DNA of 64,000 nucleotides from Telluria beijingensis (GTDB taxonomy: Bacteria; Pseudomonadota; Gammaproteobacteria; Burkholderiales; Burkholderiaceae_D). A program made the translations under genes and the position numbers. Shown here one piece after another: positions 23,716-49,525 of the stretch; position 1 is the first letter of the stretch; each line of letters starts with the position of its first letter. The stretch lies in contig NZ_CP132480.1 of the NCBI RefSeq assembly GCF_030770395.1, positions 2,495,979 through 2,559,978 of the forward strand, read 5' to 3'. The notes beneath the pieces were generated by a model. That model did no database searches, was not told where the DNA came from, and was given only the letters and a program-made list of their open reading frames with translations.

Positions 23716-24867
23716 ATGTGCGTGTGGCACGAGACAGAGACGAAGGCGGCCGGTGGCGCCTGGACCGCCATTCGCGCCGCAATGGGGGGCGCTGGAACTG
23801 TGCTCGATCCGGAAGACGAAAAGGCGTTCGGCACGGCGGTCGATCGCACGTTGTCGGACCTGTTGCCCGCGCTGGGACCGCTGTTCGGGCTTGCCGTGGT
23901 GGTGTTCACAGTATGGGATTTCTGGATCGCGCCGGCGCGCGCGCCGCTGACGGCAACGCTACGCTTGCTTCTCGTCCTGGCAGGCGCGATGGGGTATGGA
24001 CACTGGGGCGGGCGGCTCTCGGCGCCGGTCCGTTGCGCCCTGGTCTACATCTCGCATACCAGTGCGATGATTCTCAGTGCCGCACTCCTGCCGAACGGGC
24101 TGGTACTTGCCTTGCCCGCGATTAGCGGCGCAATGTTCCTGCTGGCCCTGGTCGAGCCGCGCCTCGGTCGCTTTTTTTGCATCACCTTGCCGCCGATGCT
24201 GCTGTTCATGCTGCTCGGCGCCCTGGAATTGTCCCAGCCGGCATTTGCCAGCAGCATGCTGGTCCATGCGGCCATGCTGCCTTTGGCGGCGGCAGTGTGC
24301 ATGACGCAAGGAAGGTGGCGGCGTGCCGCTTTTCTCGGTGAACGGGCCCTCGCGCATGCGGCTCATCACGACAGCCTCAGCGGCGTGTTTGCGCGCGGCT
24401 ACCTGGTCGAACTGGGGAACCATGACGTCGCCCTGGCCAAGCGTCATGGGCGTCCGCTGGCAATCGGCATGGTCGATATCGACTACTTCAAGCGGGTCAA
24501 CGACAGCTTCGGGCATGCCGCAGGCGATTTGTTGCTGTGCGCGGTCAGCAAAGCCTGTTGCGCCCAATTGCGGGCCAGCGACTACTTCGGGAGAATCGGC
24601 GGCGAGGAATTCGTCTGCGTCATGCCGGAGACGACTGAAGACGATGCGCTGGCGTGCGCCGAGCGGATGCGCGCCGCAGTGGCCGCGATCCGGATCGAGA
24701 CGGCTTCAGGAATTCTGGGATGCACGATCAGCGTCGGCATCGCGGCGTTGCAGCGGGAACATGCCGACTTTGACGGTCTGCTCGCGGCGGCCGATAGCGC
24801 CATGTACCGGGCCAAGACGAGCGGCCGCAATCGCGTCGTGCTGGCGGCGCCGCGCCTTTGCTACTGA
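23716..24867 (+). CDS. Membrane-bound diguanylate cyclase (GGDEF)
   Basis: 383 residues from ATG 23716. Earlier non-ATG starts in frame are possible and no start has a strong ribosome site. About six hydrophobic helices occupy residues 50-200 and form a membrane sensor of unknown ligand. The GGDEF domain has the active loop RIGGEEF near residue 295 and an intact inhibitory site RASD five residues before it, so product inhibition by c-di-GMP is expected. It makes c-di-GMP from GTP. The 3' end overlaps a minus-strand FNR-like remnant by 7 bp. The same convergent arrangement recurs at 45.1 kb with the cyclase decayed and FNR intact. Confidence 0.9.
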   Translation: MCVWHETETKAAGGAWTAIRAAMGGAGTVLDPEDEKAFGTAVDRTLSDLLPALGPLFGLAVVVFTVWDFWIAPARAPLTATLRLLLVLAGAMGYGHWGGRLSAPVRCALVYISHTSAMILSAALLPNGLVLALPAISGAMFLLALVEPRLGRFFCITLPPMLLFMLLGALELSQPAFASSMLVHAAMLPLAAAVCMTQGRWRRAAFLGERALAHAAHHDSLSGVFARGYLVELGNHDVALAKRHGRPLAIGMVDIDYFKRVNDSFGHAAGDLLLCAVSKACCAQLRASDYFGRIGGEEFVCVMPETTEDDALACAERMRAAVAAIRIETASGILGCTISVGIAALQREHADFDGLLAAADSAMYRAKTSGRNRVVLAAPRLCY

Positions 24868-24962
24868 CTGACCAGTGGCTTGTCCGCCGTGTCTGCCAAG
24901 AGCGAATGCACGTGCCTGCGATCGAGCAGCTCGATGTTTTGCAGTTGAAGCCGCCACGCCCC
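24861..24962 (-). pseudogene. C-terminal remnant of an FNR/CRP-type regulator
   Basis: The minus frame ending at 24861 reads WRLQLQNIELLDRRHVHSLL and then ADTADKPLVSQ, then stop. It lines up with the C-terminus of the intact FNR of this window (IALDKREIELLDPGRLEALL). Upstream of it the frame loses any likeness to a helix-turn-helix. Position supports homology: it converges on and overlaps the cyclase gene, exactly as the intact FNR converges on the cyclase remnant at 45.1 kb. Confidence 0.55.
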
Positions 24963-25144
24963 CCATTCCTTGGACTCGCCGTCCTTGCCGCCCGCGGGGC
25001 ACTGGTCGGCCTCGAATTGCGCACATGGCTGGCACTGCGGATGGCGTCGCGCCCGCCTCAACTGCCTGGACGAGCCGCCGGGCACCTGGAATAGCTGCTG
25101 CACCACGTTATTTCTACGAAGTCTACTCACCGCAGTTTGAACTT

Positions 25145-25158
25145 TTGATCTCAGTCAA
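25145..25158. promoter_or_regulatory. FNR box TTGAT-CTCA-GTCAA
   Basis: Nine of ten consensus bases. The predicted start of transcription is near 25193, just before the first usable ATG of the hemerythrin-like gene, so the message would be nearly leaderless or start at a later ATG (25224 or 25263). Confidence 0.8.
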
Positions 25159-25202
25159 ACTCAGTGCAATATATTACGAGCACACTGCGATCTCTTAAAT
25201 CG

Positions 25203-25685
25203 ATGTCAAGGCCGATCTCTCTCATGACTTCAATACCGCGATTGCCTCGACGCCCGCACACCATGATCCAGGCGCTGGTACTGACTCTGGACCGCCTGTC
25301 GGTCCAGGTTGGCCAGACGGCACACGCGCCGGACAAGTCCCTTGCAGGCGCGTTGTGTGGTCTGGTCGCATCGGTCGAACGTGCTTTTCGCCAGGAGGAT
25401 GCGCTGATGGAAGAAACCGGATATCGCGGCTTGCACGTGCAACGGAAGGACAATGCGCCGATCTTGTGCGCCTTGCGTCGTGCTGACGCGCGGGTCGAAC
25501 ACGGTGATATGGCGATCGGTCGCGAGATGATTGCTGCATTGCCGGGACTGCTGTCCCTGCACCGGACGACGGCGCTCGGTATGCTCAACCACAGCATGGG
25601 CGGTGATCGAGGGTGCGTGGTCATGCGCAGTGGCCGGATCCGCATCCGGACGGCCCCGCGGTACCGGCCAGGGCGGGGGCAGTGA
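25203..25685 (+). CDS. Hemerythrin-like (HHE-type) protein lacking most iron ligands
   Basis: 160 residues if ATG 25203 is used. The start is uncertain and an upstream GTG at 25164 would lie before the expected transcription start. The core VERAFRQEDALMEETGYRGL and the later LPGLLSLHRTT follow the bacteriohemerythrin helix pattern (HFxxEExLM...GYP...H...H). However, the first His is replaced and the HxxxH pair is reduced to one His, so a di-iron O2 site is unlikely. The stop overlaps the USP start (TGATG), so the two are translationally coupled. A decayed second copy of both genes lies at 48.9-49.5 kb. Confidence 0.65.
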   Translation: MSRPISLMTSIPRLPRRPHTMIQALVLTLDRLSVQVGQTAHAPDKSLAGALCGLVASVERAFRQEDALMEETGYRGLHVQRKDNAPILCALRRADARVEHGDMAIGREMIAALPGLLSLHRTTALGMLNHSMGGDRGCVVMRSGRIRIRTAPRYRPGRGQ

Positions 25686-26518
25686 TGAATTACCGATCCA
25701 TGCTAGTGCATGCGGACTTGTCACGTCATGCGACCGAACGCCACCGACTTGCGGCCCGGCTGGCCAGTGCGCACGATGCGCACCTGATCGCCGTCGCCGC
25801 GACAGGCGTGTCGCGTGCGGTGTTTCCTCATGGCTATCAGGCTGCTGCAGGAAGCCTTGAAGAGAGTTATTTCGAGCCGCTGCGCGACAGCGCGACGCAA
25901 GCGCTGGATCGCTTCGACGCCATCGCCCTCCAGACGGGAGTCGCGCACGAGACCCGCCTTGTCTGGGACCTGGCCAGCGATGCGCTCGCCCGGATGGCGC
26001 GGTTCGTCGACCTGGCGGTGGTGAGCCAGTACGATCCCGACGAAGCGCTGACCGAGCCGGGGTGGCGCATCCCCGAATACGTCGCGATCACAAGTGCCTG
26101 TCCGGTACTGGTGCTGCCATGTGCCGGCGCGACCGACACTGGCCGCCACATCCTGGTTGCCTGGGACGGTAGCAGGGAGTCCTCGGCCGCGCTGAAGGCG
26201 GCGCTCCCGATGATGCGGCGCGCGGCGCGCGTCAGTATCGTGTCTTTCCGCTCTCCGGACGATGGCGATATCCTGGACGCCCGCTGTCAGACCGATCTGG
26301 CCGCCTTCCTGGCTCGCCACGAGGCTTGCGCCGATATCCTTGCGCTTGACCGTCATATTGACCACGGACAGGCCTTGCTCGCCATGACCCAGGAAGAGGC
26401 TGTCGACCTGATCGTGATGGGCTGCTACGGACACTCGCAGTTCCGCGAACTGTTCCTGGGCGGCGTGACCAGGACGGTCCTGCGCGAGACAAGCGTTCCC
26501 GTGCTGATGGCGCGCTGA
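25685..26518 (+). CDS. Universal stress protein, tandem UspA domains
   Basis: 277 residues. N-terminal domain MNYRSMLVHADLSRHATERH, second domain HILVAWDGSRESSAAL ending MGCYGHSQFRELFLGGVTRTVL and TSVPVLMAR. It has the same two-domain plan as the USP at 20909, including the GHSxxRE...GGVTR signature. Its start overlaps the stop of the hemerythrin-like gene. Expression probably comes from the 25145 FNR box. A truncated paralogue at 49250-49525 shares a long conserved segment (WDLASDALAR is identical in both). Confidence 0.9.
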   Translation: MNYRSMLVHADLSRHATERHRLAARLASAHDAHLIAVAATGVSRAVFPHGYQAAAGSLEESYFEPLRDSATQALDRFDAIALQTGVAHETRLVWDLASDALARMARFVDLAVVSQYDPDEALTEPGWRIPEYVAITSACPVLVLPCAGATDTGRHILVAWDGSRESSAALKAALPMMRRAARVSIVSFRSPDDGDILDARCQTDLAAFLARHEACADILALDRHIDHGQALLAMTQEEAVDLIVMGCYGHSQFRELFLGGVTRTVLRETSVPVLMAR

Positions 26519-26936: not shown

Positions 26937-26950
26937 TTGATATCGATCAA
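26937..26950. promoter_or_regulatory. Consensus FNR box TTGAT-ATCG-ATCAA
   Basis: All ten consensus bases match. It lies 178 bp before the SYLF gene and faces the SYLF-Hsp20-PFK group. The long leader contains T-rich DNA just downstream of the box. Confidence 0.82.
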
Positions 26951-28444: not shown

Positions 28445-29599
28445 ATGGATCCTGTCATCAGGCGAATTGCCATCTCCACAGGAGGGGGCGACGCTCCCGG
28501 GCTCAACGCCGTAATCCGCGCGGTCGTGCTTGCTGCAGACCAGCTTGGTTGGGAATGCCATGGTATCCGGGACGGCTTCAATGGACTGCTCGCCCCCGAG
28601 CACTGCCTCGGCGAACCGGTTCTACGCCTGTCGACCGATGCCGTGCACGGCATCGGCCATCTCGGCGGCACGATCCTCGGCAGCACTAACCGGGGCAACC
28701 CGATGCGCTATCCAAAGAGTGGGAGCGGCGGGCCCATCGAACAGGATCGCACCGACGAGCTGGTTGGTCTTTGCCGCCAATGCGGCTTCGATGCCCTGAT
28801 CGTTGTCGGGGGCGACGGCTCGATGAGCATCGCCGATTGCCTGCGGCGCAAAGGACTGCGGGTGATCGGCGTACCCAAGACGATCGACAACGATCTCGAC
28901 CGCACCTTCCAGACTTTCGGTTTCGACTCCGCAGTAGGATTCGCGACCGAATGCATCGACCGTCTGCACACCACGGCGGATAGCCAGCACCGCGTAATGG
29001 TTGTCGAAGTGATGGGACGCTACGCTGGCTGGATTGCGCTGCACGCGGGCCTGGCGGCGGGCGCGCATGCGATCCTGCTTCCCGAAATCCCGTTCTGTCT
29101 CGATACGGTGGCGCAGGCCATCGCGAAACGCGACGCTGCCGGGCGGCGCCACTCCGTCGTCGTGGTGGCTGAAGGCGCACAGCCGCTCGGGCGGCGGCGT
29201 GAGCTGCTCGCGGCCGCCGGGGCCGGCCAGGCCGAGCGCCTGGGCGGCATTGGCGCCTGGGTCGAAGCGGGACTCGGCAGCCGTACAGGCAAGGAATGCC
29301 GCAACGTGGTGCTGGGCCATCTGCTGCGCGGCGGACGCCCTTCCGCATTCGACCGCGTCATCGCATCGCGCTTCGGGGCAGCGGCAGTCAGGATCCTGGC
29401 ACGCGGCGAGCAGGGCGTGATGGTGGCGCTGGACGGGGATGGCATCGTAAGCGTGCCCCTGGCCGAGGTTGCCGGCCGCAGCAGGCGGGTTCCCATCGAC
29501 GGCGATACGGTGCACACCGTGCGCGAGCTCGGCATCTGCCTTGGCGAGCGTAATGGGCGGAGCCCGGACAAAATGGACGCTGGCCAGCCGCGCTGGTGA
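28445..29599 (+). CDS. pfkA: 6-phosphofructokinase, GGDGS + PKTIDND type
   Basis: 384 residues of the PfkA family. Seen motifs are STGGGDAPGLNAVIR (phosphate loop), GGDGSMSIA (position 104-equivalent is Gly, which favours ATP), PKTIDNDLDRTF (Lys at the 124-equivalent, as in PPi-linked and group III enzymes) and MGRYAGWIA. This mix is typical of group III PFKs that usually use ATP. It phosphorylates fructose-6-phosphate, the committing step of Embden-Meyerhof glycolysis, which many Burkholderiales lack. Its place after Hsp20 under FNR control suggests fermentative ATP supply at low oxygen. Confidence 0.92.
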   Translation: MDPVIRRIAISTGGGDAPGLNAVIRAVVLAADQLGWECHGIRDGFNGLLAPEHCLGEPVLRLSTDAVHGIGHLGGTILGSTNRGNPMRYPKSGSGGPIEQDRTDELVGLCRQCGFDALIVVGGDGSMSIADCLRRKGLRVIGVPKTIDNDLDRTFQTFGFDSAVGFATECIDRLHTTADSQHRVMVVEVMGRYAGWIALHAGLAAGAHAILLPEIPFCLDTVAQAIAKRDAAGRRHSVVVVAEGAQPLGRRRELLAAAGAGQAERLGGIGAWVEAGLGSRTGKECRNVVLGHLLRGGRPSAFDRVIASRFGAAAVRILARGEQGVMVALDGDGIVSVPLAEVAGRSRRVPIDGDTVHTVRELGICLGERNGRSPDKMDAGQPRW

Positions 29600-29639
29600 A
29601 CGCAGGATTCCGAAGCTTGCTTCGCCCATGCTGGCAAAT

Positions 29640-29653
29640 TTGATCCGAATCAA
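29640..29653. promoter_or_regulatory. Consensus FNR box TTGAT-CCGA-ATCAA of the hydrogenase operon
   Basis: All ten consensus bases match, 71 bp upstream of hypC. With the site at -41.5, transcription would start near 29688 and leave a 36-base leader. This single promoter could serve the whole hyp-hyd-exporter run to 44.9 kb. Confidence 0.85.
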
Positions 29654-29723
29654 ACGAAGAAGCCCGAGCTTGCGAGAGTATTTGTTTAATCTCCATCCGC
29701 GTTGTCGGGTACAAGGTGTTGGC

Positions 29724-30023
29724 ATGTGCCTTGCCGTACCAATGGAAGTACTGAAAATCGAGGACGGGACTGCCTGGTGCAGCGCAAGCGGCATACGGCG
29801 TGCAGTCAGCCTGTACTTGCTCCCGTCCGATGCGGTCGCGCCGGGTGACTTCGTGCTCGTCCATGTGGGATACGCCATCCAGAAGATCGTCGCGCATGAG
29901 GCAAGGACGACCTGGGAGCTCATCGACCGGATGCAGGGGGTGGAAATCCCGAAACGCGATGCACGAACTTTCGATCAGCAGGGCGCTGCTCGACCAGCTT
30001 GCCGGCCTGGTAAGGCAACATAA
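29724..30023 (+). CDS. hypC: [NiFe] hydrogenase maturation chaperone HypC
   Basis: 99 residues starting MCLAVPMEVLKIEDG. Cys2 is the invariant residue that carries the Fe(CN)2CO unit with HypD. The OB-fold core ends at DFVLVHVGYAIQKI, as expected. The C-terminal extension of about 25 residues beyond the usual 75-80 runs into the hypA start region and overlaps it by 65 bp. HypC delivers the iron centre to the large subunit precursor. First gene of the operon, downstream of an FNR box. Confidence 0.92.
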   Translation: MCLAVPMEVLKIEDGTAWCSASGIRRAVSLYLLPSDAVAPGDFVLVHVGYAIQKIVAHEARTTWELIDRMQGVEIPKRDARTFDQQGAARPACRPGKAT

Positions 30024-30309
30024 TGCCACTGGTGTCAGCGCCATTACCTTGTGCATCGGGCCGCTGTCAGGGATCGAGCCAGCACTGTTGCGGGCAGCCT
30101 ACATGCAGTCCCGCAAGCAGACCGTCGCCGAGCATGCGGACCTGATCATCCTGCCTGCCGCGGTACGCGTGCTATGCCAGGAGTGCGCCGCCGTGTCCGA
30201 GGCCACGCCGGCGCGGCTGACATGCGCGGCATGCGCGTGCTCCCGGACGCGCCTGCTGAGTGGTGACGAGATGTTGCTGGAAAGTGTAGACCTGGAGTTC
30301 GGCGCCTGA
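29959..30309 (+). CDS. hypA: Hydrogenase nickel insertion protein HypA
   Basis: 116 residues beginning MHELSISRALLDQL. His2 is the nickel ligand. The zinc site has two Cys pairs: CQEC and CAAC with about 14 residues between, followed by an extra Cys. It hands nickel to the large subunit together with HypB. The ATG lies inside the 3' end of hypC in another frame (65-bp overlap), so translation is coupled. Confidence 0.93.
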   Translation: MHELSISRALLDQLAGLVRQHNATGVSAITLCIGPLSGIEPALLRAAYMQSRKQTVAEHADLIILPAAVRVLCQECAAVSEATPARLTCAACACSRTRLLSGDEMLLESVDLEFGA

Positions 30310-30336
30310 GCCGGCCGCCTTGTGAAAGGAATCCTC

Positions 30337-31089
30337 ATGTGCGCAGATTGTGGCTGTGGAGCAAGCGAGGCGGACAAGACGCCACACTACGTGCCACTGG
30401 CGCGGAGCAGCTCGAGGGTGAAGGTCATGCGCGGCCTGCTGTGCGAGAACGACCGGGCAGCCGGGCACAACAGGCGGCATTTCGACCTCCACCAGACCCT
30501 GGCCATCAACCTCATGTCATCCCCGGGCGCCGGCAAGACCGCCTTGCTCGAGGCCAGCATCGAGGCGCTGTCGGCCACCTTCCGGATCGCGGTCATAGTC
30601 GGCGACCTGGAAACCGACAACGATGCCCGCCGCATCCGGGCCAAGGGCGTGCCTGTGGTGCAGATCACGACGGGAAGCGCCTGCCACCTCGACGCGGCAA
30701 TGGTCCACGACGCCTGGCACCAGCTGCGCAACGAGCCGGTCGATCTCCTGTTTATCGAGAACGTGGGCAACCTCGTATGCCCAGCCAGCTTCGCTCTTGG
30801 CCAGCATGCCGACGTGATCCTGCTGTCCGTCCCCGAAGGCGACGACAAGCCGGCCAAGTACCCGGTCATGTTCCGCTGCGCCGACCTCATGCTGATTACG
30901 AAGATCGACCTCCTGCCTTACCTCGCGGACTTCGTGCCGGAACGCGCGCAGCGCTACATGAATGAGATTGGCAACCCTGCACCGACCCTGGCGACCTCTT
31001 CCCGCGATGGCACCGGCATGGACGAATGGTTCGGTTGGTTGCGCCGGCTGCATGCGGCGCAGGGCCACCCGGCAGAGGTTGCAACATGA
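30337..31089 (+). CDS. hypB: Hydrogenase maturation GTPase HypB
   Basis: 250 residues from ATG 30337, which has GAAAGGA upstream. The N-terminal high-affinity nickel motif is MCADCGCG (CxxCxC). There is no His-rich storage stretch. The P-loop is NLMSSPGAGKTALLE, followed by VGDLETDNDARR and the NKxD-like TKIDLLPY. GTP hydrolysis drives nickel delivery with HypA. The stop overlaps the hypD start (ATGA). Confidence 0.94.
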   Translation: MCADCGCGASEADKTPHYVPLARSSSRVKVMRGLLCENDRAAGHNRRHFDLHQTLAINLMSSPGAGKTALLEASIEALSATFRIAVIVGDLETDNDARRIRAKGVPVVQITTGSACHLDAAMVHDAWHQLRNEPVDLLFIENVGNLVCPASFALGQHADVILLSVPEGDDKPAKYPVMFRCADLMLITKIDLLPYLADFVPERAQRYMNEIGNPAPTLATSSRDGTGMDEWFGWLRRLHAAQGHPAEVAT

Positions 31090-32207
31090 GCGTCACGGCG
31101 CTGCAATGGCTGAACGAGATCGCGCGACTTCCCCTGCCCGATCGCGTCCGGATCATGAACGTCTGCGGCGGCCACGAGCGTACCGTCGCGATGGCGGGTC
31201 TCCGCACCGTCCTGCCGCCGCAAGTCGAGATCATCCCCGGCCCCGGCTGCCCCGTCTGCGTGTGTCCGGAACAGGACATCCACGATGCGATCCGCTTGGC
31301 GCTCGACCATGGGGTGATCCTGCTGGCATTCGGCGACATGCTGCGGGTGCCCGGCAACCTGCCCAAAGGCGAGGTACGGTCGCTCGAGCAGGCGCGCGGG
31401 GCGGGCGCCGATGTGCGGCCGATCGCCAGTCCGCTGGAGGCGGTCGCGGTCGCGCGCGCCAATCCGGCCCGTCCCGTGGTGTTCTTCGCGGCCGGTTTCG
31501 AGACCACCACGGCGCCGGTCGCCGCGATGCTGCTCGACGCGCCGCCGGCCAACCTGTTCCTGCTGCTGTCGGCGCGCCGCACCTCGCCCACGGTGGCCAT
31601 GCTGCTGGAATCGGAGCGGCCTTCCTTCGACGCCCTGCTGGCCCCGGGCCATGTCTGCGCCGTCATGGGACAGGAGGAGTGGGGCTTCGTGGTCGATCGG
31701 CATGCGGTCCCGGCGGCGGTGGCCGGGTTCACGCCGGACAGTCTGCTGGCGGCGACTTATTCGGTGTTGCGGCAGATCGTCGAGGGCCGCTGTTTCCTGG
31801 ACAATTGCTACCCACAGGTGGTGCAAGCGGGAGGGAACCCATTCGCGCAGCGCCAGCTGCTGCAGGCGATGGACGTCATCGATGCGCAATGGCGCGGGAT
31901 CGGCACGATCCCGAAGTCCGGCTACCGGATTGGGCAGGCCTTCGCCGCGCACGACGCGCGCCTGCGATTTCCGACTGCGCCCACTGCGGCCGGGACGACG
32001 CGGCCACGTGCCGGACAGATGCCGCCCGGCTGCGATTGCGCCAAGGTGGTGCTGGGCAAGATCTACCCCGACCATTGCCGCCTGTACGGACGGGCCTGCA
32101 CCCCGCGGGCACCTATTGGTCCCTGCATGGTGTCCGACGAAGGCGCCTGCCGGATCTGGTGGACGAGCCGGGCGCGCAGCCCGGTGCTGGCCGCGAGCGG
32201 AGAGTAG
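31086..32207 (+). CDS. hypD: Hydrogenase maturation protein HypD
   Basis: 373 residues. The N-terminal CGGHE (in RIMNVCGGHERT) and GPGCPVC motifs bind the iron precursor with HypC. GFETTTAP follows. The C-terminal [4Fe-4S] cysteines are in CFLDNCYPQVV, GCDCAKV, HCRLYGRACTP and IGPCMVSDEGAC. It assembles the Fe(CN)2CO unit. Start overlaps hypB. Confidence 0.94.
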   Translation: MSVTALQWLNEIARLPLPDRVRIMNVCGGHERTVAMAGLRTVLPPQVEIIPGPGCPVCVCPEQDIHDAIRLALDHGVILLAFGDMLRVPGNLPKGEVRSLEQARGAGADVRPIASPLEAVAVARANPARPVVFFAAGFETTTAPVAAMLLDAPPANLFLLLSARRTSPTVAMLLESERPSFDALLAPGHVCAVMGQEEWGFVVDRHAVPAAVAGFTPDSLLAATYSVLRQIVEGRCFLDNCYPQVVQAGGNPFAQRQLLQAMDVIDAQWRGIGTIPKSGYRIGQAFAAHDARLRFPTAPTAAGTTRPRAGQMPPGCDCAKVVLGKIYPDHCRLYGRACTPRAPIGPCMVSDEGACRIWWTSRARSPVLAASGE

Positions 32208-32210
32208 GGC

Positions 32211-34484
32211 ATGGACAGCGCCGGCGCCGGCAGCCTGCAGGAACCCGGTGGCGAGAGCCAGGCCTGCCGCTGGCTGCTGACCGGGCGCGTGCAGGGGGTG
32301 GGCTTCCGGCCCTTCGTGTACCGACTGGCCCGGGCCTACGGCATTCGTGGCTACGTGCATAATGTCGCAGGACAGGTCGTGATCGTCGGCGAAGCCGGAG
32401 CGGCGGCGCTCGCGCAGTTCGGCCACGCGCTGCTGGCCCAGGCCCCTCGGCTTGCGCTCCCGCGCATCGCGTCCTGCGCCAACTGCGCGCCGGTCGGATT
32501 CGCCGACTTCCGGATCGTGCCCAGCGAGCAGGCGCGCGAGCGCGAGCTTCATCTGCCTCCCGATTGCTTCTGCTGCGATGATTGCCTGAGCGAGCTTGGT
32601 GATCCCGCTGACCGCCGCTATCGCTATCCCTTCATTAACTGCACGCAGTGCGGGCCGCGCTACACGCTCATCACGGGCATGCCCTATGACCGCGAGAATA
32701 CGACCATGCGCGAGTTCGCCATGTGCCCGCTGTGCCGCGCGGAGTACGAGGATCCCGGGAACCGCCGTTTCCATGCCGAGCCGATCGCTTGTCCCGCCTG
32801 CGGTCCGCAATTGTGCTTCCACGCGCCAGGTTCCCCCGCGATCGATAACACGCAAGCGGCGCTGGCCGCCTGCGCCGCACAGATTGCCGCTGGCCGGATT
32901 GTCGCCGTCAAGGGCATCGGGGGCTACCACCTGATGGCCGATGCCACCAGCGAAAGTACGGTGGCCCGGCTGCGTGAACGCAAGCGGCGGCCGCACAAGC
33001 CGCTGGCGCTGATGCTGCCTGCCGGCGCGGCGCGAATCCGGTCGCTGCTCGATATCGACGAGGCCGGCTACGCGGTGCTGGCCGGTCCGCTCCGGCCGAT
33101 CCTGCTGGCACGGCCGCGAACGGGTGGGCCCCTTGCGCCGAATATCGCGTCGGGCCTGCACGAAGTGGGGGCGATGCTGGCCTACAGTCCGCTGCACCAC
33201 CTCCTGATCGAGGCCGCTGGCGTACCGCTGGTGGCCACCTCCGCCAATCTCAGCGGGGAGCCGGTCCTGACCGAGGCGGACGAGGTCGAGGCGCGGCTCG
33301 CCGGGGTCGCCGACGGTTATCTCCACCACGGGCGGCGTATAGCGCGGCCGGCGGACGACCCGGTGTTCAGGATGATCGCGGGCAGGCCGCGCCCGATCCG
33401 CCTGGGACGCGGCGCCGCACCCATCGACCTCGCGCTCCCGTTTCCGCTGCCTGGCCCGGTCCTGGCCGCCGGCAGCCAGACGAAGAACACGCTGGCGCTG
33501 GGCTGGGTGGCGCGCGCAGCGATGTCGCCCCATATCGGCGACCTCGACAGCGCACGCGCCATGGACGTCTTCCAGCAGACGGCGGCCGACATGGCGGCTC
33601 TCCAGGGCATCTCGCCGGCGGCGATCGCCTGCGATGCGCACCCCGGTTTCGCCAGTACCCGCTGGGCCGCCGGCACGGGACTGCCATTGATCAAGGTTTG
33701 GCACCACCACGCCCATGCGTCGGCGCTGGCGGCGGAACATCCGGATGTCGACGCCTGGCTGGTCTTCACCTGGGATGGCGTTGGTCTCGGGATGGACGGA
33801 ACCCTGTGGGGCGGCGAAGCGTTCTCCGGTATGCCGGGTCGCTGGCGGCGCGTGGCGACGTTGCGGCCGCTGCGCATTGTCGGCGCCGGGCTGGCAGCGC
33901 GGCAACTCTGGCGCAGCGCGGCCGCCATGTGCTGGGATGCGGGCCACGCATGGCGTTCCGAGCGGTACGGGCTCCTGCGGCATGCATGGCGCAGGCAGCT
34001 CAACTGTCATACGAGCTCGGCCGCCGGACGGCTGTTCGATGGCGCCGCGGTGCTGCTGGGCCTGCTGGAAGAAGGTGATTTCGAGGGGCAGGGACCGATG
34101 TGGCTGGAGGCCGCCGCGGACCGGAACAAGGGCGCGGCACTGCCCCTGCCGGTGGCGAGAAATGCCACTGGTCTGTGGGAACTGGATTGGCGTCCAGTGC
34201 TGCCCATGCTGCTTGATGCGAGCCGACCGTCGGGCGAGCGTGCCGCGGTCTTCCAGGCCAGCCTTGCAAGCGGCCTGCTGGCACAGGCGCACGCGCTGCG
34301 AAGGGACACCGGGGTGCGCCGGGTCGGCCTGTGCGGGGGCGTGTTCCAGAACCGTTGGCTTACCGGGCAGGTCGTCGGCCTGCTGGCCGGGGACGGCTTC
34401 GATGTGCGGCTGGCCGAGCGGCTGCCATGCAACGACGCGGCGCTCTCCTTCGGGCAGCTGGTGGAAGCGGGAGCACGGCCATGA
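32211..34484 (+). CDS. hypF: Carbamoyltransferase HypF
   Basis: 757 residues, full length. The domains in order are acylphosphatase-like (GRVQGVGFRPFVYRLA, residues about 20-100), two zinc fingers (CCDDC to CTQC and CPLC to CPAC, about 120-195), a YrdC-like domain (about 210-390) and a Kae1-like domain with the metal-binding HHHAHA near residue 500. It converts carbamoyl phosphate and ATP into carbamoyl adenylate and transfers the group to the HypE C-terminal Cys, giving the CN ligands. Its stop overlaps the hypE ATG. Confidence 0.95.
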   Translation: MDSAGAGSLQEPGGESQACRWLLTGRVQGVGFRPFVYRLARAYGIRGYVHNVAGQVVIVGEAGAAALAQFGHALLAQAPRLALPRIASCANCAPVGFADFRIVPSEQARERELHLPPDCFCCDDCLSELGDPADRRYRYPFINCTQCGPRYTLITGMPYDRENTTMREFAMCPLCRAEYEDPGNRRFHAEPIACPACGPQLCFHAPGSPAIDNTQAALAACAAQIAAGRIVAVKGIGGYHLMADATSESTVARLRERKRRPHKPLALMLPAGAARIRSLLDIDEAGYAVLAGPLRPILLARPRTGGPLAPNIASGLHEVGAMLAYSPLHHLLIEAAGVPLVATSANLSGEPVLTEADEVEARLAGVADGYLHHGRRIARPADDPVFRMIAGRPRPIRLGRGAAPIDLALPFPLPGPVLAAGSQTKNTLALGWVARAAMSPHIGDLDSARAMDVFQQTAADMAALQGISPAAIACDAHPGFASTRWAAGTGLPLIKVWHHHAHASALAAEHPDVDAWLVFTWDGVGLGMDGTLWGGEAFSGMPGRWRRVATLRPLRIVGAGLAARQLWRSAAAMCWDAGHAWRSERYGLLRHAWRRQLNCHTSSAAGRLFDGAAVLLGLLEEGDFEGQGPMWLEAAADRNKGAALPLPVARNATGLWELDWRPVLPMLLDASRPSGERAAVFQASLASGLLAQAHALRRDTGVRRVGLCGGVFQNRWLTGQVVGLLAGDGFDVRLAERLPCNDAALSFGQLVEAGARP

Positions 34485-35488
34485 CGCCCAACAGCCGCAT
34501 CCAGCTAGCGCACGGCAACGGCGGCCGCCTGATGCGCGAGCTGATCGAAACGGTCTTCGTGCGCCATCTTGCAAACCCCTGCCTGGATACGGACCTCGAT
34601 GGCGCCACGGTGCCGCTGCGCGCCGGTCATATCGTGCTCAGTACTGACGCCTTCACCGTACAGCCCCTCGAGTTCCCCGGTGGCGACATCGGCAAGCTGG
34701 CCGTCAACGGCACGGTCAACGACCTGGCCGTCGCCGGCGCCACGCCGCAGTACCTGACGCTCAACGCCATCATCGAGGAGGGCTTCGCGATTGAGCAACT
34801 GGACCGGATCGTGCTTGGCATCGCGCGCGCCGCGCGCGCCGCGCAGGTGGCCGTGGTCGCGGGCGACACCAAGGTAGTGCGGCGCGGCGAAGCCAGCGGC
34901 CTTTACCTCGCCACCACCGGCGTCGGCCTGCGGCCCGATGGGCTGCGGCTGGGCATGGCACACGTGAAGGAAGGCGATCGGATCCTCGTCAGCGGGCCGG
35001 TGGGCGACCACGGTACTGCGGTGCTGCTGGCACGCGAGGAGTTCGGGCTGGCGGGCGAACTGAAGTCCGACTGTGCCAATGTGATTGGCCTGGCACAGGC
35101 GCTGCTGCCGATTAGGGGCCTGCGCTTCATGCGCGACCCGACGCGCGGCGGGCTGGCGACCGTCTGTCACGAACTGTGCCGCGGGACCGGACTCGGCATC
35201 GTGCTCGGCGAGTCCGCCATCCCCGTCTTTCCGGAGGTGCGCGCCGTTTGCGACATGCTTGGCTACGACCCACTCTATCTCGCGTGCGAAGGCCGCGTCG
35301 TTGCCGTGGTGGCCGCGCACGCCGCCGCCGCCGCGCTGACCGCGTGGCGCAGCCTGCCCGAGGGACGCGAGTCGGCGATCGTCGGCGCCGTTTCCGGCGA
35401 ACGGCGCTGCGTGATGCTGCGAACCGCCCTTGGCGGCGAGCGCTATCTCGAAGAACTGGAAGACGATCCGCTGCCGCGGATCTGCTAA
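34481..35488 (+). CDS. hypE: Hydrogenase maturation protein HypE
   Basis: 335 residues of the PurM/ThiL-like fold: LAHGNGGRLM at the start, STDAFTVQPLEFPGGDIG (ATP-binding loop), NDLAVAGA and RDPTRGGLA. It ends in PRIC, the invariant C-terminal Cys that is carbamoylated by HypF and dehydrated to thiocyanate. All key features are intact. Overlaps hypF by 4 bp and leads into the structural genes 12 bp later. Confidence 0.95.
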   Translation: MTPNSRIQLAHGNGGRLMRELIETVFVRHLANPCLDTDLDGATVPLRAGHIVLSTDAFTVQPLEFPGGDIGKLAVNGTVNDLAVAGATPQYLTLNAIIEEGFAIEQLDRIVLGIARAARAAQVAVVAGDTKVVRRGEASGLYLATTGVGLRPDGLRLGMAHVKEGDRILVSGPVGDHGTAVLLAREEFGLAGELKSDCANVIGLAQALLPIRGLRFMRDPTRGGLATVCHELCRGTGLGIVLGESAIPVFPEVRAVCDMLGYDPLYLACEGRVVAVVAAHAAAAALTAWRSLPEGRESAIVGAVSGERRCVMLRTALGGERYLEELEDDPLPRIC

Positions 35489-35500
35489 GCGAGGATCGCC

Positions 35501-38225: not shown

Positions 38226-39516
38226 CAAGCGCACGGTCGGCATCCGGGTACCGGTATTGGCCCGGGTGGAAGGCGAGGGCGCGCTCGAGATCGACATCGC
38301 GGACGGCCGGATTGCCAGCCTCAGGCTGCGCATCTATGAGCCGCCGCGCCTGTTCGAGAAGTTCCTCCAGGGGCGCGCCTGGCACGAGGTGCCAGACATG
38401 GTGGCGCGTATCTGCGGGATCTGCCCGGTCGCCTACCAGATGAGTGCCGTGCATGCGCTGGAGCGCATCTTCGGGATCGATCCCGGCCCCTGGGTGCGGG
38501 CGATGCGCAGGGTGATGTATTGCGGCGAATGGATAGAGAGCCACTGCCTGCACATCCACCTGCTGGCGGCGCCTGACTTCCTGGGCTGCAGCAGTGTCAT
38601 CGAGCTGGCGCAGGACCATCCGGACCAAGTGCGGCGCGGGCTGGCCCTGCAGGCCCTCGGCAACGACCTGATCCGGCTGCTTGGTGCGCGCTCGGTGCAT
38701 CCAGTCGGCGTGCGGGTCGGTGGCTTCCACCATGCGCCAGCGCCGCAAGCGGCAGCGGCGCTGTGCCAGCGGCTGCGGGAGGCCCTGCCGGAAGCGCAGG
38801 CGCTGCTGGCCTGGACCGCGGCGCTGCCGCTGCCGGACAGCGCGCAGCAGTTTCCCAGCGTCGCCCTGCACCATCCGCACGAGTATCCGATGAACGAGGG
38901 CCGCATCGTGTCCAGCCAGGGGCTCGACATCGGCGCGGACGACTACGAAAGCCGCTTCGCCGAACACCAGGTGCCGCACTCTACAGCCCTGCACAGCCTG
39001 CTGCAGGGGCAGGCCTACCTGGTCGGGCCGCTCGCCCGTGTCAACCTGAACCATCATCTTCTGCCGGAACCCGTGCGCGCGGGGCTGGCCGCGGCCGGGA
39101 TCCCCTTCCCCAGTTCGAATGTCTTCCACAGCATCGTGGCGCGCGCCGCTGAAGTGTGGTGCGCCTTGCTGGAGGCGCTCCGGCTCCTGGAGCAATACCG
39201 CTTGCCTGATGCGCCATGGGCGGAGATCATCCCGCGTGCCGGCATCGGGATGGCATGCACCGAGGCTCCACGCGGCATCCTGTGGCACCGCTACGAGACC
39301 GACGGCGACGGAATCATCCGGCGGGCGCGGATCGTCCCGCCGACCAGCCAGAACCAGGCACGGATCGAACAGGACCTCTTGCAATCGCTCGAGGATTTCG
39401 GCCTGGACCGTCCCGACGACGAGCTGCGCCGGCGTGGAGAGACTGTGATCCGCAACTACGATCCCTGCATCTCCTGCGCGACACACTTCCTCACGCTTGC
39501 GGTGCGGCGCCGATGA
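38218..39516 (+). CDS. hydA: [NiFe] hydrogenase large subunit, group 3b-like
   Basis: 432 residues. The nickel ligands are in RICGICPVAYQ (L1) near residue 64 and DPCISCATH (L2) near the C-terminus. The tail FLTLAVRRR after the His is the peptide removed by the maturation protease encoded next. The lack of a membrane anchor and the hydBGDA order place it in cytoplasmic NAD(P)-linked group 3b rather than groups 1 or 2. It can oxidise H2 or dispose of excess reductant as H2. ATG 38218 is preferred over an upstream in-frame start that would lie deep in hydD. Confidence 0.93.
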   Translation: MNDKRTVGIRVPVLARVEGEGALEIDIADGRIASLRLRIYEPPRLFEKFLQGRAWHEVPDMVARICGICPVAYQMSAVHALERIFGIDPGPWVRAMRRVMYCGEWIESHCLHIHLLAAPDFLGCSSVIELAQDHPDQVRRGLALQALGNDLIRLLGARSVHPVGVRVGGFHHAPAPQAAAALCQRLREALPEAQALLAWTAALPLPDSAQQFPSVALHHPHEYPMNEGRIVSSQGLDIGADDYESRFAEHQVPHSTALHSLLQGQAYLVGPLARVNLNHHLLPEPVRAGLAAAGIPFPSSNVFHSIVARAAEVWCALLEALRLLEQYRLPDAPWAEIIPRAGIGMACTEAPRGILWHRYETDGDGIIRRARIVPPTSQNQARIEQDLLQSLEDFGLDRPDDELRRRGETVIRNYDPCISCATHFLTLAVRRR

Positions 39517-44890: not shown

Positions 44891-44995
44891 CCGGCTGAAC
44901 AGGCGTCCGGGAGCCCGCCGTAGGAAAGTCGCTTGCAGTGCTGAACGACGACTGCGATCAGATTCGATACCCCGAACGGGAGGATAGGATGCACG

Positions 44996-45147
44996 ATCGG
45001 TATCGGTATCGGTATCGGCATTGCAGCATTAACCCAGGAAATGGCGAATTCGGCGCCCTGCTCGCAGCGGCAGATTTTGCCTTATATCGGGCGAAATCAA
45101 GCGGCCGTGACCGCGTGGTGCTGGCGTCGCATCATTCCTCTTCGTGA
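44996..45147 (+). pseudogene. C-terminal remnant of a GGDEF domain
   Basis: One frame reads GIGIGIAALTQEMANS, and after a one-base shift near 45045 the next reads FGALLAAADFALYRAKSSGR then DRVVLASHHSSS and stop. The intact cyclase at 24.8 kb has SVGIAALQRE...LLAAADSAMYRAKTSGR, so this is the tail of a paralogue. A hexanucleotide run (TATCGG repeated) at its left end marks the break. Its stop overlaps the FNR gene by 16 bp, mirroring the 24.86 kb junction. Confidence 0.75.
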
Positions 45148-45908
45148 CTGACGCCCGGTTCACCGGGCGCGGCCGACAGCAGCGCTTCGAGGCGTCCAGG
45201 GTCGAGCAGCTCGATCTCGCGCTTGTCCAGCGCGATCCAGTGCTCGTCGCGGAAGCGGCCCAGCAAGCGACTGATGCTTTCGATCGTCAAGCCAAGGTAG
45301 TTTCCCATGTCGGCGCGCGACATGCGCAGGCGGAAGCGCCGTCCGGAATAGCCGCGTTCGGCATAGCGTGCGGACAGATCCAGTAGCAGGGTGGCGAGAC
45401 GCTCCGCACCGCTCATGTCCGCATGCAGCAACGCATTTTGCTCACGCACGATCTCGTGGCTCAGGGCGGCATGGAACCGCTGCATCAAGGGCAGTGATTC
45501 ATGCATCGATTCCTGAAACCTGCTGTAAGGGATCTCGCATACTTCGCTGTCTTCAAGTGCGACCGTGGTGCAGGCATGCCGTCCGGCATAGATGGCGTCG
45601 AGCCCGAGCAATTCGCCGGCCATGTAGAAACCGGTGACATGCGGATGGCCCCGGTGGTCGGGTCGCGACGACTTCAGGTGGCCGAAGCGGACCGCATAGA
45701 TCATGGCAAACGGCTGGTCCTTGCGGAACAGGACCTCGTCGCGCGCCAGGCGCCGCCGGTATCCGACCAGTTTGTCGAGTCGAAGGATATCCAGGGTGCC
45801 GATGCCGGACGGCAGGCACGCGTTGCGCGCCACGCAGCGGGAACAGATCACCGCTGTTGACTGCGGGATCGGCGCACGAGTTTCGGCATGGAACGTCATA
45901 TCGTTCAT
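45132..45908 (-). CDS. fnr: FNR, oxygen-sensing [4Fe-4S] transcription regulator
   Basis: 258 residues from ATG 45908, which follows GGGAGGACCT. Two nearby ATGs are alternatives. The cluster ligands are Cys22, Cys25, Cys31 (C-x2-C-x5-C) and Cys124 in SEVCEIPY, matching the E. coli FNR set. The cyclic-nucleotide-binding-like fold is followed by the helix-turn-helix SRADMGNYLGLTIESISRLL, whose ExxSR reads TTGAT. Without oxygen it dimerises and activates promoters with TTGAT-N4-ATCAA sites, seven of which lie in this island. The box at 46056 may also regulate fnr itself. A remnant of a second copy lies at 24.86 kb. Confidence 0.95.
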   Translation of the reverse strand: MNDMTFHAETRAPIPQSTAVICSRCVARNACLPSGIGTLDILRLDKLVGYRRRLARDEVLFRKDQPFAMIYAVRFGHLKSSRPDHRGHPHVTGFYMAGELLGLDAIYAGRHACTTVALEDSEVCEIPYSRFQESMHESLPLMQRFHAALSHEIVREQNALLHADMSGAERLATLLLDLSARYAERGYSGRRFRLRMSRADMGNYLGLTIESISRLLGRFRDEHWIALDKREIELLDPGRLEALLSAAPGEPGVSHEEE

Positions 45909-46229
45909 AGGTCCTCCCATGTGCCAGGAGTGGCTCGTGGGTCAGTATCGGATAGGGTGGCCGATCAGGCAAGGCGCATGTGGGACCATGCCCCCTTGCC
46001 TTTGGCATAGGTCCAGGCAGGAGGAAGCCCTCCCTCGTATGTTTTTTGCTGATTTTTGATTTGGATCAAACGCATGCCAGGACAGTGCGGATGCTGCCGA
46101 TTTAAAGTTGGCGGCACCGGTGGGCGGTTGAACGGGGAGGGCAATGTACACACAAATAGTTGGTGGCATGGCGTGCCGCGGGGCGGAGCGATACCGTGTT
46201 AAGCCACGGCATCGGCAAGACCGGCTCGG
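45909..46229. other. Divergent intergenic region between fnr and the P-type ATPase gene
   Basis: 320 bp with one FNR box near the middle (listed separately). The rest shows no supported gene. A GGGAGG ribosome site for fnr lies at the left edge. Confidence 0.5.
46056..46069. promoter_or_regulatory. Consensus FNR box TTGAT-TTGG-ATCAA
   Basis: All ten consensus bases match. It is nearly equidistant from fnr (minus) and the P-type ATPase gene (plus), so it may act on either or both. For the ATPase a -41.5 placement predicts a 126-base leader. Confidence 0.83.
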
Positions 46230-48773
46230 ATGATGCCTGACGCACCAGAGATCGCTCCACGAGGCCTGACCGGTGACGAAGCCGCGCGCCGCCTTTTTCG
46301 GGACGGCCCCAACCAGTTGCCCGACGCCGGCGGAAGGCGCTGGCAGCGGATCGCCGCCGATGCCGCGCGCGAACCGATGTACCTGCTTCTCGCTGGCGCG
46401 GCTGTCCTCTACCTGCTGCTGGGCGAAGCGCGCGAAGGCGCTTTCCTGCTCGGCATGGTTGTCCTGATACTCTGCATGACCCTGTTCCAGGAGGGGCGTA
46501 CCGAGCGAGCACTACAAGCCCTACGAGACCTGAGTTCGCCGACTGCACTGGTATGGCGCGACGGCAGTGTGCGACGCATTCCAGCGAACGACCTGGTCGA
46601 AGGCGACGTGATCGAATTGTACGAGGGGGATCGTGTACCTGCCGATGCGTCGCTGTTGACGGCGGCCGGACTGATGGTGGACGAATCCTTGTTGACGGGT
46701 GAATCGGTCCCCGTAGGCAAGCTGGCCGCGCCTGAGGGAAGTCCTCCGGCCACCCCCGGCGGTGCCGACCAGCCATGGGTGTATTCCGGAACGCTGGTCG
46801 TGCAGGGCCACGGACTGGCGCGCGTCAGCGCCACCGGCGCACGCAGCGAGATCGGGCGCATCGGCGCGGCGCTTGGCGGGATCGCCGCACCACCCGGACG
46901 CCTGCAGCGCGAGACTGCGCAGCTGGCGCGCCGCTTTGCGCTGTTGGGTGGGGCAGTCAGTGCCATGCTGGTCGGGCTGCTGCTGCTCCGTGGCAGTGAG
47001 CTGGTGCAGGCGCTGCTCGCCGGTATCGCCTTGTCGATGTCGATGCTGCCGGAGGAGTTCCCTGTCATTCTCACGGTGTTTCCCGCCATCGGGGCGTGGC
47101 GGCTGGCGCGCAGCCAGGTCCTGACACGTCGTCTGTCGGCCATTGAGATCCTTGGCTCGACATCGGTTTTGTGCGTCGACAAGACTGGCACCTTGACGGA
47201 GAATCGCATGGCCGTGGCCCGGCTGTGGGAGAGCGGCGTCGCCTACGATCCCGCCTCGGGTGCGCCGATGCCGGCGCCGCACCGCGAGCTGCTGCAGACG
47301 GCCTTGCGGGCCAGCCGCGGGCCAGGCAGCGATCCGATGGAAGCCGCGTTCTGGCGCCTGGCTGCCAATGTCCTGCCTGAGGGCGGAGCCCTGCCGGCGA
47401 GCTGGTCGTTAGTGCATGAGTACGGGCTGACCTCGCAACGGCCGGCCCTGGTGCATGTGTGGGACCGCGGCGACGGCACGGTCCTGGTGGCGGCAAAAGG
47501 GGCTCCCGAGATGGTAGTGGCGTTATGCAGCGCGGCCGCGCCCTTGCGCGAGAAGGTCCTGGCTGCCGCTGCGGAGATGGCCGCCGCAGGGCTGCGGGTG
47601 CTGGCGGTGGCGCAGGCGTCCACTGCGAATGGACCATGGCCGGAGGATCCCGCCGGCTTCGGACTCGAACTGGTCGGCCTGATAGCGCTGGCCGATCCGC
47701 TGCGCGCCGACATCCCGGATGCCGTGGCCGCATGCCGGGCAGCAGGTCTGCGCATCGTGATGATTACAGGCGATCATCCCGAGACCGCGCGCGCGATCGC
47801 GCGCCAGGCCGGTATGGGTGCCGGCGAGGCGCTCACGGGGGCACAGATCGCGGCGCTGGAGACCGAGGCGCTGGCGCGCCGCCTCCACGGCATCGACGTC
47901 TGTGCGCGCATCGCGCCACAACAGAAGCTCGACATCGTACAGGCTCTGCAGCGTGGCGGCGCCGTCGTCGCCATGACCGGGGACGGTGTCAACGACGCAC
48001 CGGCCCTCCGTGCCGCCAATGTCGGCGTCGCGATGGGACGGCGCGGCACCGACGTCGCGCGCGAGGCAGCCGAGCTGACCCTCCTTGACGACCGCTTCGC
48101 TTCACTCGTCGAGGCAATCGCGTCTGGTCGCCGAATCTTCGGCAACATGCGCAAGTCGATGTGCTATGTGTTGGCGATGCATGTGCCGATCGCGGGGATG
48201 GCCCTGCTTCCGGTACTGCTGGGCTGGCCGGTCATGCTGTATCCGCTCCATATCGTCTTCCTCGAGCTGGTCATCGATCCCGCCTGTTCGCTGGCCTTCG
48301 AAAAAGAGCCTCCCGAGAAAGACCTGATGCGCAGGCCACCGCGCGCGGCGGGAGAATCGCTGTTCGGCCAGGAAGCCGTCGTCAGCGCACTGGTACAGGG
48401 TGTCTGGGTGCTGGCGCTCCTGATCGCGTTGTATGGCTGGGCACTGTCTCAGCTGCCCGAATCCGAAGCGCGCACGGTCGCCTTCGCAGGACTGGTCCTG
48501 TGCAACCTGGCCCTGCTGATGTCGAACCGCCAGCGCGATGGTGTCGGCGGGATCCTTCGGGTCGCCAATCCGGTGTTCTGGGGGATTGTCGTGGTGGCGC
48601 TGTTGCTGCTCGCGCTGGCAATCTACCTGCCGGCCGCCGCCGCGATGCTGCGGCTGGCGCCGCCGGCATCCTCAACCCTCTTGGCAGCCGGCCTGGCGGC
48701 GGCGGTGGCGCTGGCCGGTCTCGAGCTGCGCAAATGGGGAGTGGGGCGCCTGCGTCGACGAGTGGACGTCTAG
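46230..48773 (+). CDS. P2-like P-type cation-transporting ATPase
   Basis: 847 residues without an N-terminal metal-binding domain. Actuator motif DESLLTGESVPV, M4 motif PEEFPVI near residue 273 (where Ca pumps have PEGLP), phosphorylation site DKTGTLTEN with Asp near 317, hinge MTGDGVNDAPAL, and a C-terminal set of six helices. This is the Ca2+/Mg2+-type branch, but the altered M4 makes the ion uncertain. It follows an FNR box and is followed by another. Mycobacterial DosR controls a comparable pump (CtpF). Confidence 0.9.
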   Translation: MMPDAPEIAPRGLTGDEAARRLFRDGPNQLPDAGGRRWQRIAADAAREPMYLLLAGAAVLYLLLGEAREGAFLLGMVVLILCMTLFQEGRTERALQALRDLSSPTALVWRDGSVRRIPANDLVEGDVIELYEGDRVPADASLLTAAGLMVDESLLTGESVPVGKLAAPEGSPPATPGGADQPWVYSGTLVVQGHGLARVSATGARSEIGRIGAALGGIAAPPGRLQRETAQLARRFALLGGAVSAMLVGLLLLRGSELVQALLAGIALSMSMLPEEFPVILTVFPAIGAWRLARSQVLTRRLSAIEILGSTSVLCVDKTGTLTENRMAVARLWESGVAYDPASGAPMPAPHRELLQTALRASRGPGSDPMEAAFWRLAANVLPEGGALPASWSLVHEYGLTSQRPALVHVWDRGDGTVLVAAKGAPEMVVALCSAAAPLREKVLAAAAEMAAAGLRVLAVAQASTANGPWPEDPAGFGLELVGLIALADPLRADIPDAVAACRAAGLRIVMITGDHPETARAIARQAGMGAGEALTGAQIAALETEALARRLHGIDVCARIAPQQKLDIVQALQRGGAVVAMTGDGVNDAPALRAANVGVAMGRRGTDVAREAAELTLLDDRFASLVEAIASGRRIFGNMRKSMCYVLAMHVPIAGMALLPVLLGWPVMLYPLHIVFLELVIDPACSLAFEKEPPEKDLMRRPPRAAGESLFGQEAVVSALVQGVWVLALLIALYGWALSQLPESEARTVAFAGLVLCNLALLMSNRQRDGVGGILRVANPVFWGIVVVALLLLALAIYLPAAAAMLRLAPPASSTLLAAGLAAAVALAGLELRKWGVGRLRRRVDV

Positions 48774-48786
48774 GCATTTATCATTT

Positions 48787-48800
48787 TTGATTTGCATCAA
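48787..48800. promoter_or_regulatory. Consensus FNR box TTGAT-TTGC-ATCAA
   Basis: All ten consensus bases match. It lies 14 bp after the ATPase stop and 65 bp before the decayed hemerythrin-like copy, in the place equivalent to the 25145 box. The site is intact although the genes it served are broken. Confidence 0.83.
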
Positions 48801-48864
48801 ACACATTCCAGCATGACGCGCACAGGCAGCTTAGGGTGGAACACGATCACAACAGGGCCGGACC

Positions 48865-49249
48865 ATGTTCTCAAACTTGCTGCTGACAACACATTCGCAT
48901 GGGAGTGTGCATGCGATGCCGCTTGCCCGCAACCGACTGCCAAAAATGCGGAAGGCCGCGCTGGAGCCGGACGAGCGGTTCTCGGAAGCAGCGGTTCTCG
49001 GAAGCTTTTGCGAAGCCGATGCACGGCGTCGAGTGCACCTTCCGCCACGAAAAGACGCTGATGGAGGCCGCAGGGCATCCTGGCCTCCGGGACCGGCGCC
49101 GGGACAACGCGGCGCTCCTTGGCGCCCTGCGCCACGCAGCTTCCCGGGTCGAAGCTGGAACCATGCGCTCGGTCGCGAGGTGATCGCGGCATTGCCTGGG
49201 CTGATGTCCCCCTATCTGCTTCGGACCTCTCCACTACAGCGCAACACGG
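48865..49249 (+). pseudogene. Frameshifted second copy of the hemerythrin-like gene
   Basis: The piece VECTFRHEKTLMEAAGHPGL and DRRRDNAALLGALRHAASRVEAGTM aligns with the 25.2 kb gene (25 of 46 residues identical by my count). It then shifts frame near 49170 to GREVIAALPGLMSP, which matches GREMIAALPGLLS of the intact copy. At least one more shift separates the N-terminal part starting at ATG 48865. No single frame encodes the protein. Confidence 0.75.
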
Positions 49250-49525
49250 GTGATCGCGCATGTCGACCGGATCGCGGAGGAAGAGGGCGTGACGCATGAA
49301 TCCCGCATGGTCTGGGACCTGGCCAGCGATGCCCTCGCCAGGCAGGCACGGTTCAGCGACCTGGTCGTCGTCAACCAGGACGACCTGACGGGAGCGCTGG
49401 CCGACATGATCGGGCGCATACACGAGTACGTTGCCTTCACCAGTGCCGGCCCGGTGCTTGTCGTGCCATGTGCGCCGGTCGCACTGGATTCGGGCCAGCA
49501 TGTACTGCTTGGATTGCAGTCCTGA
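49250..49525 (+). pseudogene. Truncated second copy of the tandem USP gene
   Basis: The frame reads THESRMVWDLASDALARQAR, then FSDLVVVNQDDLTGAL and EYVAFTSAGPVLVVPCAP, and stops soon after at the start of the second UspA domain. Against the USP at 25685, 25 of 36 residues of the central segment are identical by my count. About 80 N-terminal residues and the whole second domain are missing. A short protein could be made, but the fold would be incomplete. Confidence 0.75.

Follow-up and report, generated by a model that had tools for sequence, protein, structure and literature searches.

Gene content of the two copies

The window analysed here is a 64 kb stretch of the one-contig, 6.02 Mb genome of Telluria beijingensis (G000:C1:2495979-2559978), and it carries two sets of genes that we refer to as copy A and copy B (Table 1). 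Both would derive from a module that runs usp-usp-cyclase, convergent fnr, P-type ATPase, hemerythrin-like gene and double USP, where USP (gene, usp) is a universal stress protein, the cyclase is a diguanylate cyclase and fnr encodes an FNR-type regulator. We consider it likely that A and B represent the same low-oxygen module, that they separated long ago and that different members have survived in each. From the cyclase to the double USP, each of the five genes is left with a single open copy, and these open copies are distributed over two places 20 kb apart.

The open frames in copy A are those of the cyclase, the hemerythrin-like protein and the double USP, and the ATG of the double USP, as read from the sequence, overlaps the stop codon of the hemerythrin-like gene. 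Judged by profile scores, the label hemerythrin-like marks a distant resemblance, below the curated cut-offs: the protein of copy A reaches 14.6 bits against the curated Pfam hemerythrin cut-off of 25.3. In an alignment with 15 family members, read by eye at the ligand positions of the family, it does not hold the full His/Glu/Asp set of iron ligands, and most of these positions are changed.

In copy B, the frames of the regulator, here called FnrB, and of the P-type ATPase are open. FnrB passes the Pfam cut-offs of PF00027 and PF13545, with a cyclic-nucleotide-binding fold and a Crp-type helix–turn–helix (HTH), and its cysteines 26, 29, 35, 117 and 128 comprise an N-terminal cluster and further cysteines, following the spacing known from E. 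coli. Its score of 182.8 bits lies below the NCBIfam Fnr subfamily cut-off of 228 bits; by these profiles it is FNR-like and is not filed as Fnr proper. The ATPase has the E1-E2, HAD and N- and C-terminal cation-ATPase domains together with the DKTGT phosphorylation motif. It exceeds the cut-off of the NCBIfam P-type subfamily, and every ion-specific model stays below its own cut-off. The remaining members of copy B are pieces: the cyclase and hemerythrin-like genes are each continued in two frames, the USP gene is a fragment of the double-domain gene, and a stretch is missing between the hemerythrin-like and USP pieces. The first-pass annotation of this DNA, made from the letters alone, had described the same division into open and broken genes, and our reading of the frames agrees with it.

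Table 1. Features of copies A and B in the window
Feature	Position	Strand	Evidence
Single-domain USP (A)	22731..23168	+	Pfam Usp 7.5e-31
Second single-domain USP (A)	23188..23673	+	Pfam Usp 4.9e-31
Intact diguanylate cyclase (A)	23686..24867	+	Pfam GGDEF 1.7e-38; GGEEF at residue 305
Probable fnr-like 3' stub (A)	24861..24935, right end approximate	-	Shuffles against the fnr tail of B; stop overlaps cyclase stop
P-type ATPase 3' stub (A)	24936..25091, left end approximate	+	0/2000 shuffles against the ATPase tail of B
FNR-box-like site, 1 mismatch (A)	25145..25158	+	79 bases before hemerythrin-like start; comparable positions in several relatives
Hemerythrin-like protein, most metal ligands missing (A)	25224..25685	+	NCBIfam 3.5e-6, below cut-offs
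Double-domain USP, 277 residues (A)	25685..26518	+	Pfam Usp 4.3e-16 (ORF 25613-26518)
Cyclase 3' fragment, two frames (B)	44954..45147	+	Cyclase residues about 334-388
Intact FNR-type regulator FnrB, 262 aa (B)	45132..45920	-	Pfam cNMP_binding, HTH_Crp_2
Exact FNR-box site	46056..46069	+	Between fnr and ATPase gene
Intact P-type ATPase, P2-like, 847 aa (B)	46230..48773	+	Pfam E1-E2_ATPase, Cation_ATPase_N, Cation_ATPase_C; DKTGT at residue 317
Exact FNR-box site (B)	48787..48800	+	78 bases before broken hemerythrin-like start
Broken hemerythrin-like gene (B)	48865..49215, right end approximate	+	Similarity over two frames
Double USP gene fragment (B)	49220..49511	+	Residues 63-159 of the 277 in A; 59% identity, E 1.6e-28

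Homology between the copies and the stubs in copy A

To compare the copies, we ran pairwise DNA and protein comparisons. Across the whole window, blastn gives three collinear matches between A and B: 24718-24850 with 44987-45130 (71%, E 1e-12), 25448-25557 with 49102-49210 (73%, E 2e-9) and 25936-26124 with 49285-49473 (76%, E 5e-30). The translated pieces of the cyclase, hemerythrin-like protein and USP agree with the DNA matches, so that the homology and the common order of the two copies, as the first-pass annotation had proposed them, are evident at both levels. The 3' ends of cyclase and fnr, read from the sequence, overlap in both copies as it had stated; the overlap covers 24861-24867 in A (7 bases) and 45132-45147 in B (16 bases).

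The stretch between the cyclase and the hemerythrin-like gene of copy A (24868-25223) was examined against 1000 or 2000 shuffles, counting those that reached the real score. The first-pass annotation had assigned 24861-24962 to an FNR remnant. At best, the first ~75 bases (24861 to ~24935) are fnr-like; what follows is the 3' end of a P-type ATPase gene on the opposite strand, which had been overlooked. The ATPase stub is clear, since the piece 24870-25091 scores beyond all 1000 shuffles with eight of nine ATPases (the exception is that of G016, with 13). The fnr stub is probable from its sequence. Against the FNR tail of copy B, 1 of 2000 shuffles at the protein level and 6 of 2000 at the DNA level reach its score, and in each copy an exact match of 14 bases lies 55 bases past the cyclase stop. 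Taken as a whole, the open frame 24861-25130 gives 12 of 1000 shuffles with the FNR of copy B and 82-729 with five other FNRs. We also considered a vestige of the N-terminal cysteine region in this frame and rejected it: its first 52 residues match six FNRs no better than shuffles do (lowest 152/1000), and the bases past ~24936 are the opposite-strand ATPase 3' end.

The two stubs lie end to end, which fits a single deletion equivalent to about 45215-48645 of copy B. One deletion of ~3.4 kb may thus have taken fnr and the ATPase together from copy A, which would have left the 3' ends of the two genes fused. All five genes are present as a gene or a stub in both copies, the fnr stub of A being short, and the ATPase stub widens to five genes the complementary survival that the first-pass annotation had described. 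Each copy was probably once complete for the five genes; in copy B the cyclase and USP would have been trimmed back and the hemerythrin-like frame lost. If the copies were redundant, either copy of a gene could have been lost.

The module in related genomes

We sampled 62 genomes of the genus, including the genome under study (G000); genomes carry the prefix G and loci the prefix L. Matches were counted as module type at no less than 58% identity with E up to 1e-60 for FNR, 73% with E up to 1e-200 for the ATPase and 56% with E up to 1e-70 for the cyclase. The FNR is found in six genomes (G000, G017, G019, G035, G021 and G072), the ATPase in nine and the cyclase in eleven, the last two counts again including our genome. 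By rpoB, G068 is the closest among 20 compared genomes (97% identity, support 100/100); this sister species has no module-type FNR or ATPase at these thresholds.

A whole module, for which the first-pass annotation had suggested a search, occurs as one block in G072: usp-usp-cyclase, convergent fnr, ATPase and, after 3.6 kb, hemerythrin-like gene and USP, with no stop within the matched stretches. Most other relatives lack or scatter members. G035 and G021 have the cyclase, convergent fnr and ATPase with USP further away, and no hemerythrin-like match in the stretches read; G017 has the cyclase, convergent fnr, an ATPase remnant and USP. In G014, G016, G027, G061 and G003 the cyclase is followed by the ATPase without fnr (G061 is split over two contigs and G003 has no hemerythrin-like match), and in G081 neither fnr nor ATPase lies between the cyclase and the hemerythrin-like gene. 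The stops of cyclase and fnr overlap in all four relatives examined, by 16 bases in G072 and by 4 in each of G035, G017 and G021. In all but one (G003) of the 11 module-cyclase loci of relatives, a USP match like 22731..23168 directly precedes the cyclase.

Some relatives show changes of their own. The ATPase of G017 is reduced to ~104 residues between fnr and USP (L067:10584-10892), apparently a separate loss, and G017 also carries usp-usp-cyclase a second time, on a different contig. The FNR of G019 is the nearest relative of FnrB (72% over 201 residues) and looks broken too, with two frames near its end (L070:12917-13596). The FNR of G021 (L073:9865-10617) is apparently without the N-terminal cysteine motif found in those of G072, G035, G017 and the window.

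FNR boxes and regulation

Sites resembling the FNR box precede the hemerythrin-like gene in both copies, as the first-pass annotation had noted, at almost the same distance. When one mismatch is allowed, the window holds 8 boxes against 0.34 expected; besides those of the two copies, boxes lie at 26937, before a Ysc84-type gene, and at 29640, after a phosphofructokinase gene. Counting exact sites only, the genome has 16 boxes, 4 of them in the window, and the control pattern has none. At up to one mismatch, the 13 relative loci scanned contain 36 boxes (control 0), several of them before usp, hemerythrin-like or ATPase genes, with no box at all in L084 and none before the hemerythrin-like gene in L077.

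The cysteines of FnrB are consistent with an oxygen-labile cluster, through which it would sense oxygen. It would act on the boxes before the hemerythrin-like–usp pair of A, before the ATPase of B and before neighbouring operons. Given these cysteines and the box positions, the regulator kept in copy B plausibly drives the effectors kept in copy A.

Surroundings of the copies

Copy B is cut at both ends. Its left end lies inside the cyclase, ~64 bases past a cluster of ABC transporter genes (39.7-44.9 kb), and such transporter genes sit downstream of the module USP in G072, G081, G061, G016 and G027. On the right, the sequence starting at 49512 has its matches at different sites in G068 and G019, and collinearity of the window with another region of G068, at 75-85% identity, begins at 50445. 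Because the transporter genes lie just to the left and the DNA from 49512 and 50445 is found elsewhere in G068, copy B lies near the right edge of the island.

Several further features were seen around the copies. The stretch 49512-50009, at the end of copy B, has a weak HTH match and occurs elsewhere in G068 (84%) and, at 92% over 165 bases, at the end of a G019 contig with low-oxygen genes. A phage-integrase-family gene (58899-60083) lies in the flank collinear with G068. Between the copies, 28445-39516 holds the phosphofructokinase gene, HypF- and HypE-like genes and a four-gene NiFe hydrogenase that resembles an NAD(P)-dependent sulfhydrogenase, its alpha subunit scoring 235.7 bits, under the equivalog cut-off of 700. 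A 10 kb block in G017:C12 matches this region at 76%.

Origin of the two copies

Copies A and B diverge about as much as the same genes do between different species. In the USP piece, the A–B identity of 203/303 (0.670) is lower than that of A with G035 (213/303, 0.703) and of B with G081 (219/306, 0.716), and in the hemerythrin-like piece it is 182/319 (0.571), lower than that of B with G081 (0.639). The cyclase piece is the only one in which A is nearest to B (117/183, 0.639; next 0.623), and there A itself is closer to G021 (0.691). A recent duplication is ruled out by this divergence. In the trees, A and B are sisters with support of 45/89 in the concatenated DNA of the stretches kept in B and of 78/43 in the cyclase DNA. 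The DNA trees of the hemerythrin-like gene and USP place them apart, yet their union is not rejected by the approximately unbiased (AU) test (p 0.384 and 0.43). In the best USP protein tree, B groups with G021/G035 (89/84), A groups with a clade of seven genomes (86/90), and here too the union of A and B is not rejected (AU p 0.375 with all columns, 0.257 with those of B). The first-pass annotation had named separate clades for the paired genes as evidence against its reading; the USP protein tree does separate them, but across the tests (AU p 0.26-0.43) A and B may still be sisters. The cyclase of A stands apart from a group formed by the other ten module cyclases (97/95), its grouping with G021 and G035 being weakly rejected (AU p 0.039), and the ATPase of B falls with G021 and G035 (55/64). 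The cyclase and hemerythrin-like remnants are each too short for a firm tree alone.

The second copy may have come from transfer of a related species' module into the same island, which we slightly favour, or from an old duplication. As a tentative proposal, B would be a xenologous module contributed by a different species of the genus; for each gene in turn, the redundancy between the two versions would have been settled, leaving a hybrid regulon whose resident promoters would now be driven by an oxygen regulator that came from outside. The segmental duplication of the first-pass annotation, followed by complementary loss within this lineage, loses ground through the higher identities of the USP and hemerythrin-like pieces to other species, and we regard it as somewhat doubtful. 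It would make A, the transporter cluster and B a head-to-tail repeat unit with its junction inside the cyclase, and the start of B just past transporter genes that follow the module USP in five relatives fits such a junction. The unrejected sister grouping, its recovery in the concatenated and cyclase DNA trees, the cyclase piece of B and the fnr stub of A, nearest to the FNR of B (score 19, against 8-10 for others), agree with it as well; the ATPase stub of A, closer to G061 (32) and G072 (31) than to B (27), the USP protein tree and the differing positions of the cyclase of A and the ATPase of B speak against it. It is rather unlikely that B arrived as a fragment already cut in the cyclase and USP, with A losing fnr and the ATPase later and mainly the hemerythrin-like gene of B decaying by small changes. 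The left end near the transporter genes and the right end at 49511/49512, next to DNA that G068 and G019 carry at other sites, accord with this, but the two frames of the cyclase fragment and the missing hemerythrin-like–USP stretch indicate decay in B too, and the flanking DNA may postdate the truncation.

We find it quite improbable that copy A comes from an fnr-less module, with the cyclase followed by the ATPase as in G014, G016, G027, G061 and G003, its fnr stub being a chance antisense match. In these five, the gap from the end of the cyclase match to that of the ATPase match is about 17-75 bases, too short to accommodate fnr; the stub of A is short, and 24870-24935 in the ATPase frame moderately matches the ATPase of G014 (8/2000 shuffles). 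The same bases are at chance level against the ATPases of B (528/2000) and G061 (434/2000), and the 14-base match, the shuffle counts for the stub and an opposite-strand stop that overlaps the cyclase stop, an arrangement also seen in relatives with fnr, argue for a true remnant. That chance or common domain types account for the resemblance of A and B deserves practically no credence: USP and GGDEF domains do occur elsewhere in the window, but the collinear DNA matches, the ATPase stub and the single-block module of G072 already contradict it.

Several observations weigh against our preferred reading of two once complete copies with complementary survival. The moderate match to the ATPase of G014 makes the position of the junction, and hence the fnr stub, uncertain. 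The 14-base match taken alone has a blastn E value of 0.28, and four of six FNRs tested give the short stub 40-486 of 1000 shuffles (G072 40, the main FNR of the genome 54, G021 172 and G035 486; G017 gives 3). Copy B, cut at both ends, may never have been complete at its site, and the trees neither unite nor part A and B firmly. Single members are often absent in relatives, so keeping one copy of each gene is not strictly needed. The open hemerythrin-like gene of A has a third-codon-position ratio of 1.4-1.6, below the 2.1-2.4 of the broken piece in B and the 1.8-3.4 of the other open module genes, and may therefore be weakly constrained or itself decaying. As for regulation, the main FNR elsewhere in the genome (53% identity) could serve the same boxes.

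The decayed pieces of B, compared with relatives, differ mostly at third codon positions (ratio 1.9-3.7). This suggests that they were still evolving as genes during most of the time since their separation and that their decay came late. Because substitutions along the branch of the relative also enter this excess, late decay is only tentative; it would agree somewhat better with a diverged copy that arrived late than with a pair retained for long.

Comparison with known systems

Read as two anciently separated copies with complementary survival, the locus is a compact natural experiment on how bacteria resolve redundancy between two copies of a regulon, with the survivors split into regulator and ATPase in one copy and effectors in the other. 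The locus also illustrates how the former completeness of a copy can be judged from short gene stubs. The low-oxygen-activated (lxa) locus of Burkholderia cenocepacia is a low-oxygen cluster with many USP genes. The closest parallels are the single-locus modules of the ten relatives G072, G035, G021, G017, G014, G016, G027, G061, G003 and G081, which share the genes, their order and the FNR boxes, and the stop overlap in the four with fnr beside the cyclase. In these relatives the module is one block (G072) or spread and gene-poor (the others), whereas in the present genome it is split across two decayed copies. Yeast after whole-genome duplication is a known case of reciprocal loss between duplicated genes, and the likeness lies in the survival of different members in each copy. 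Here, unlike in yeast, a short module on one bacterial chromosome is concerned, and duplication is only one candidate for its origin. The case is a good example of an already known kind of event, neat rather than revolutionary.

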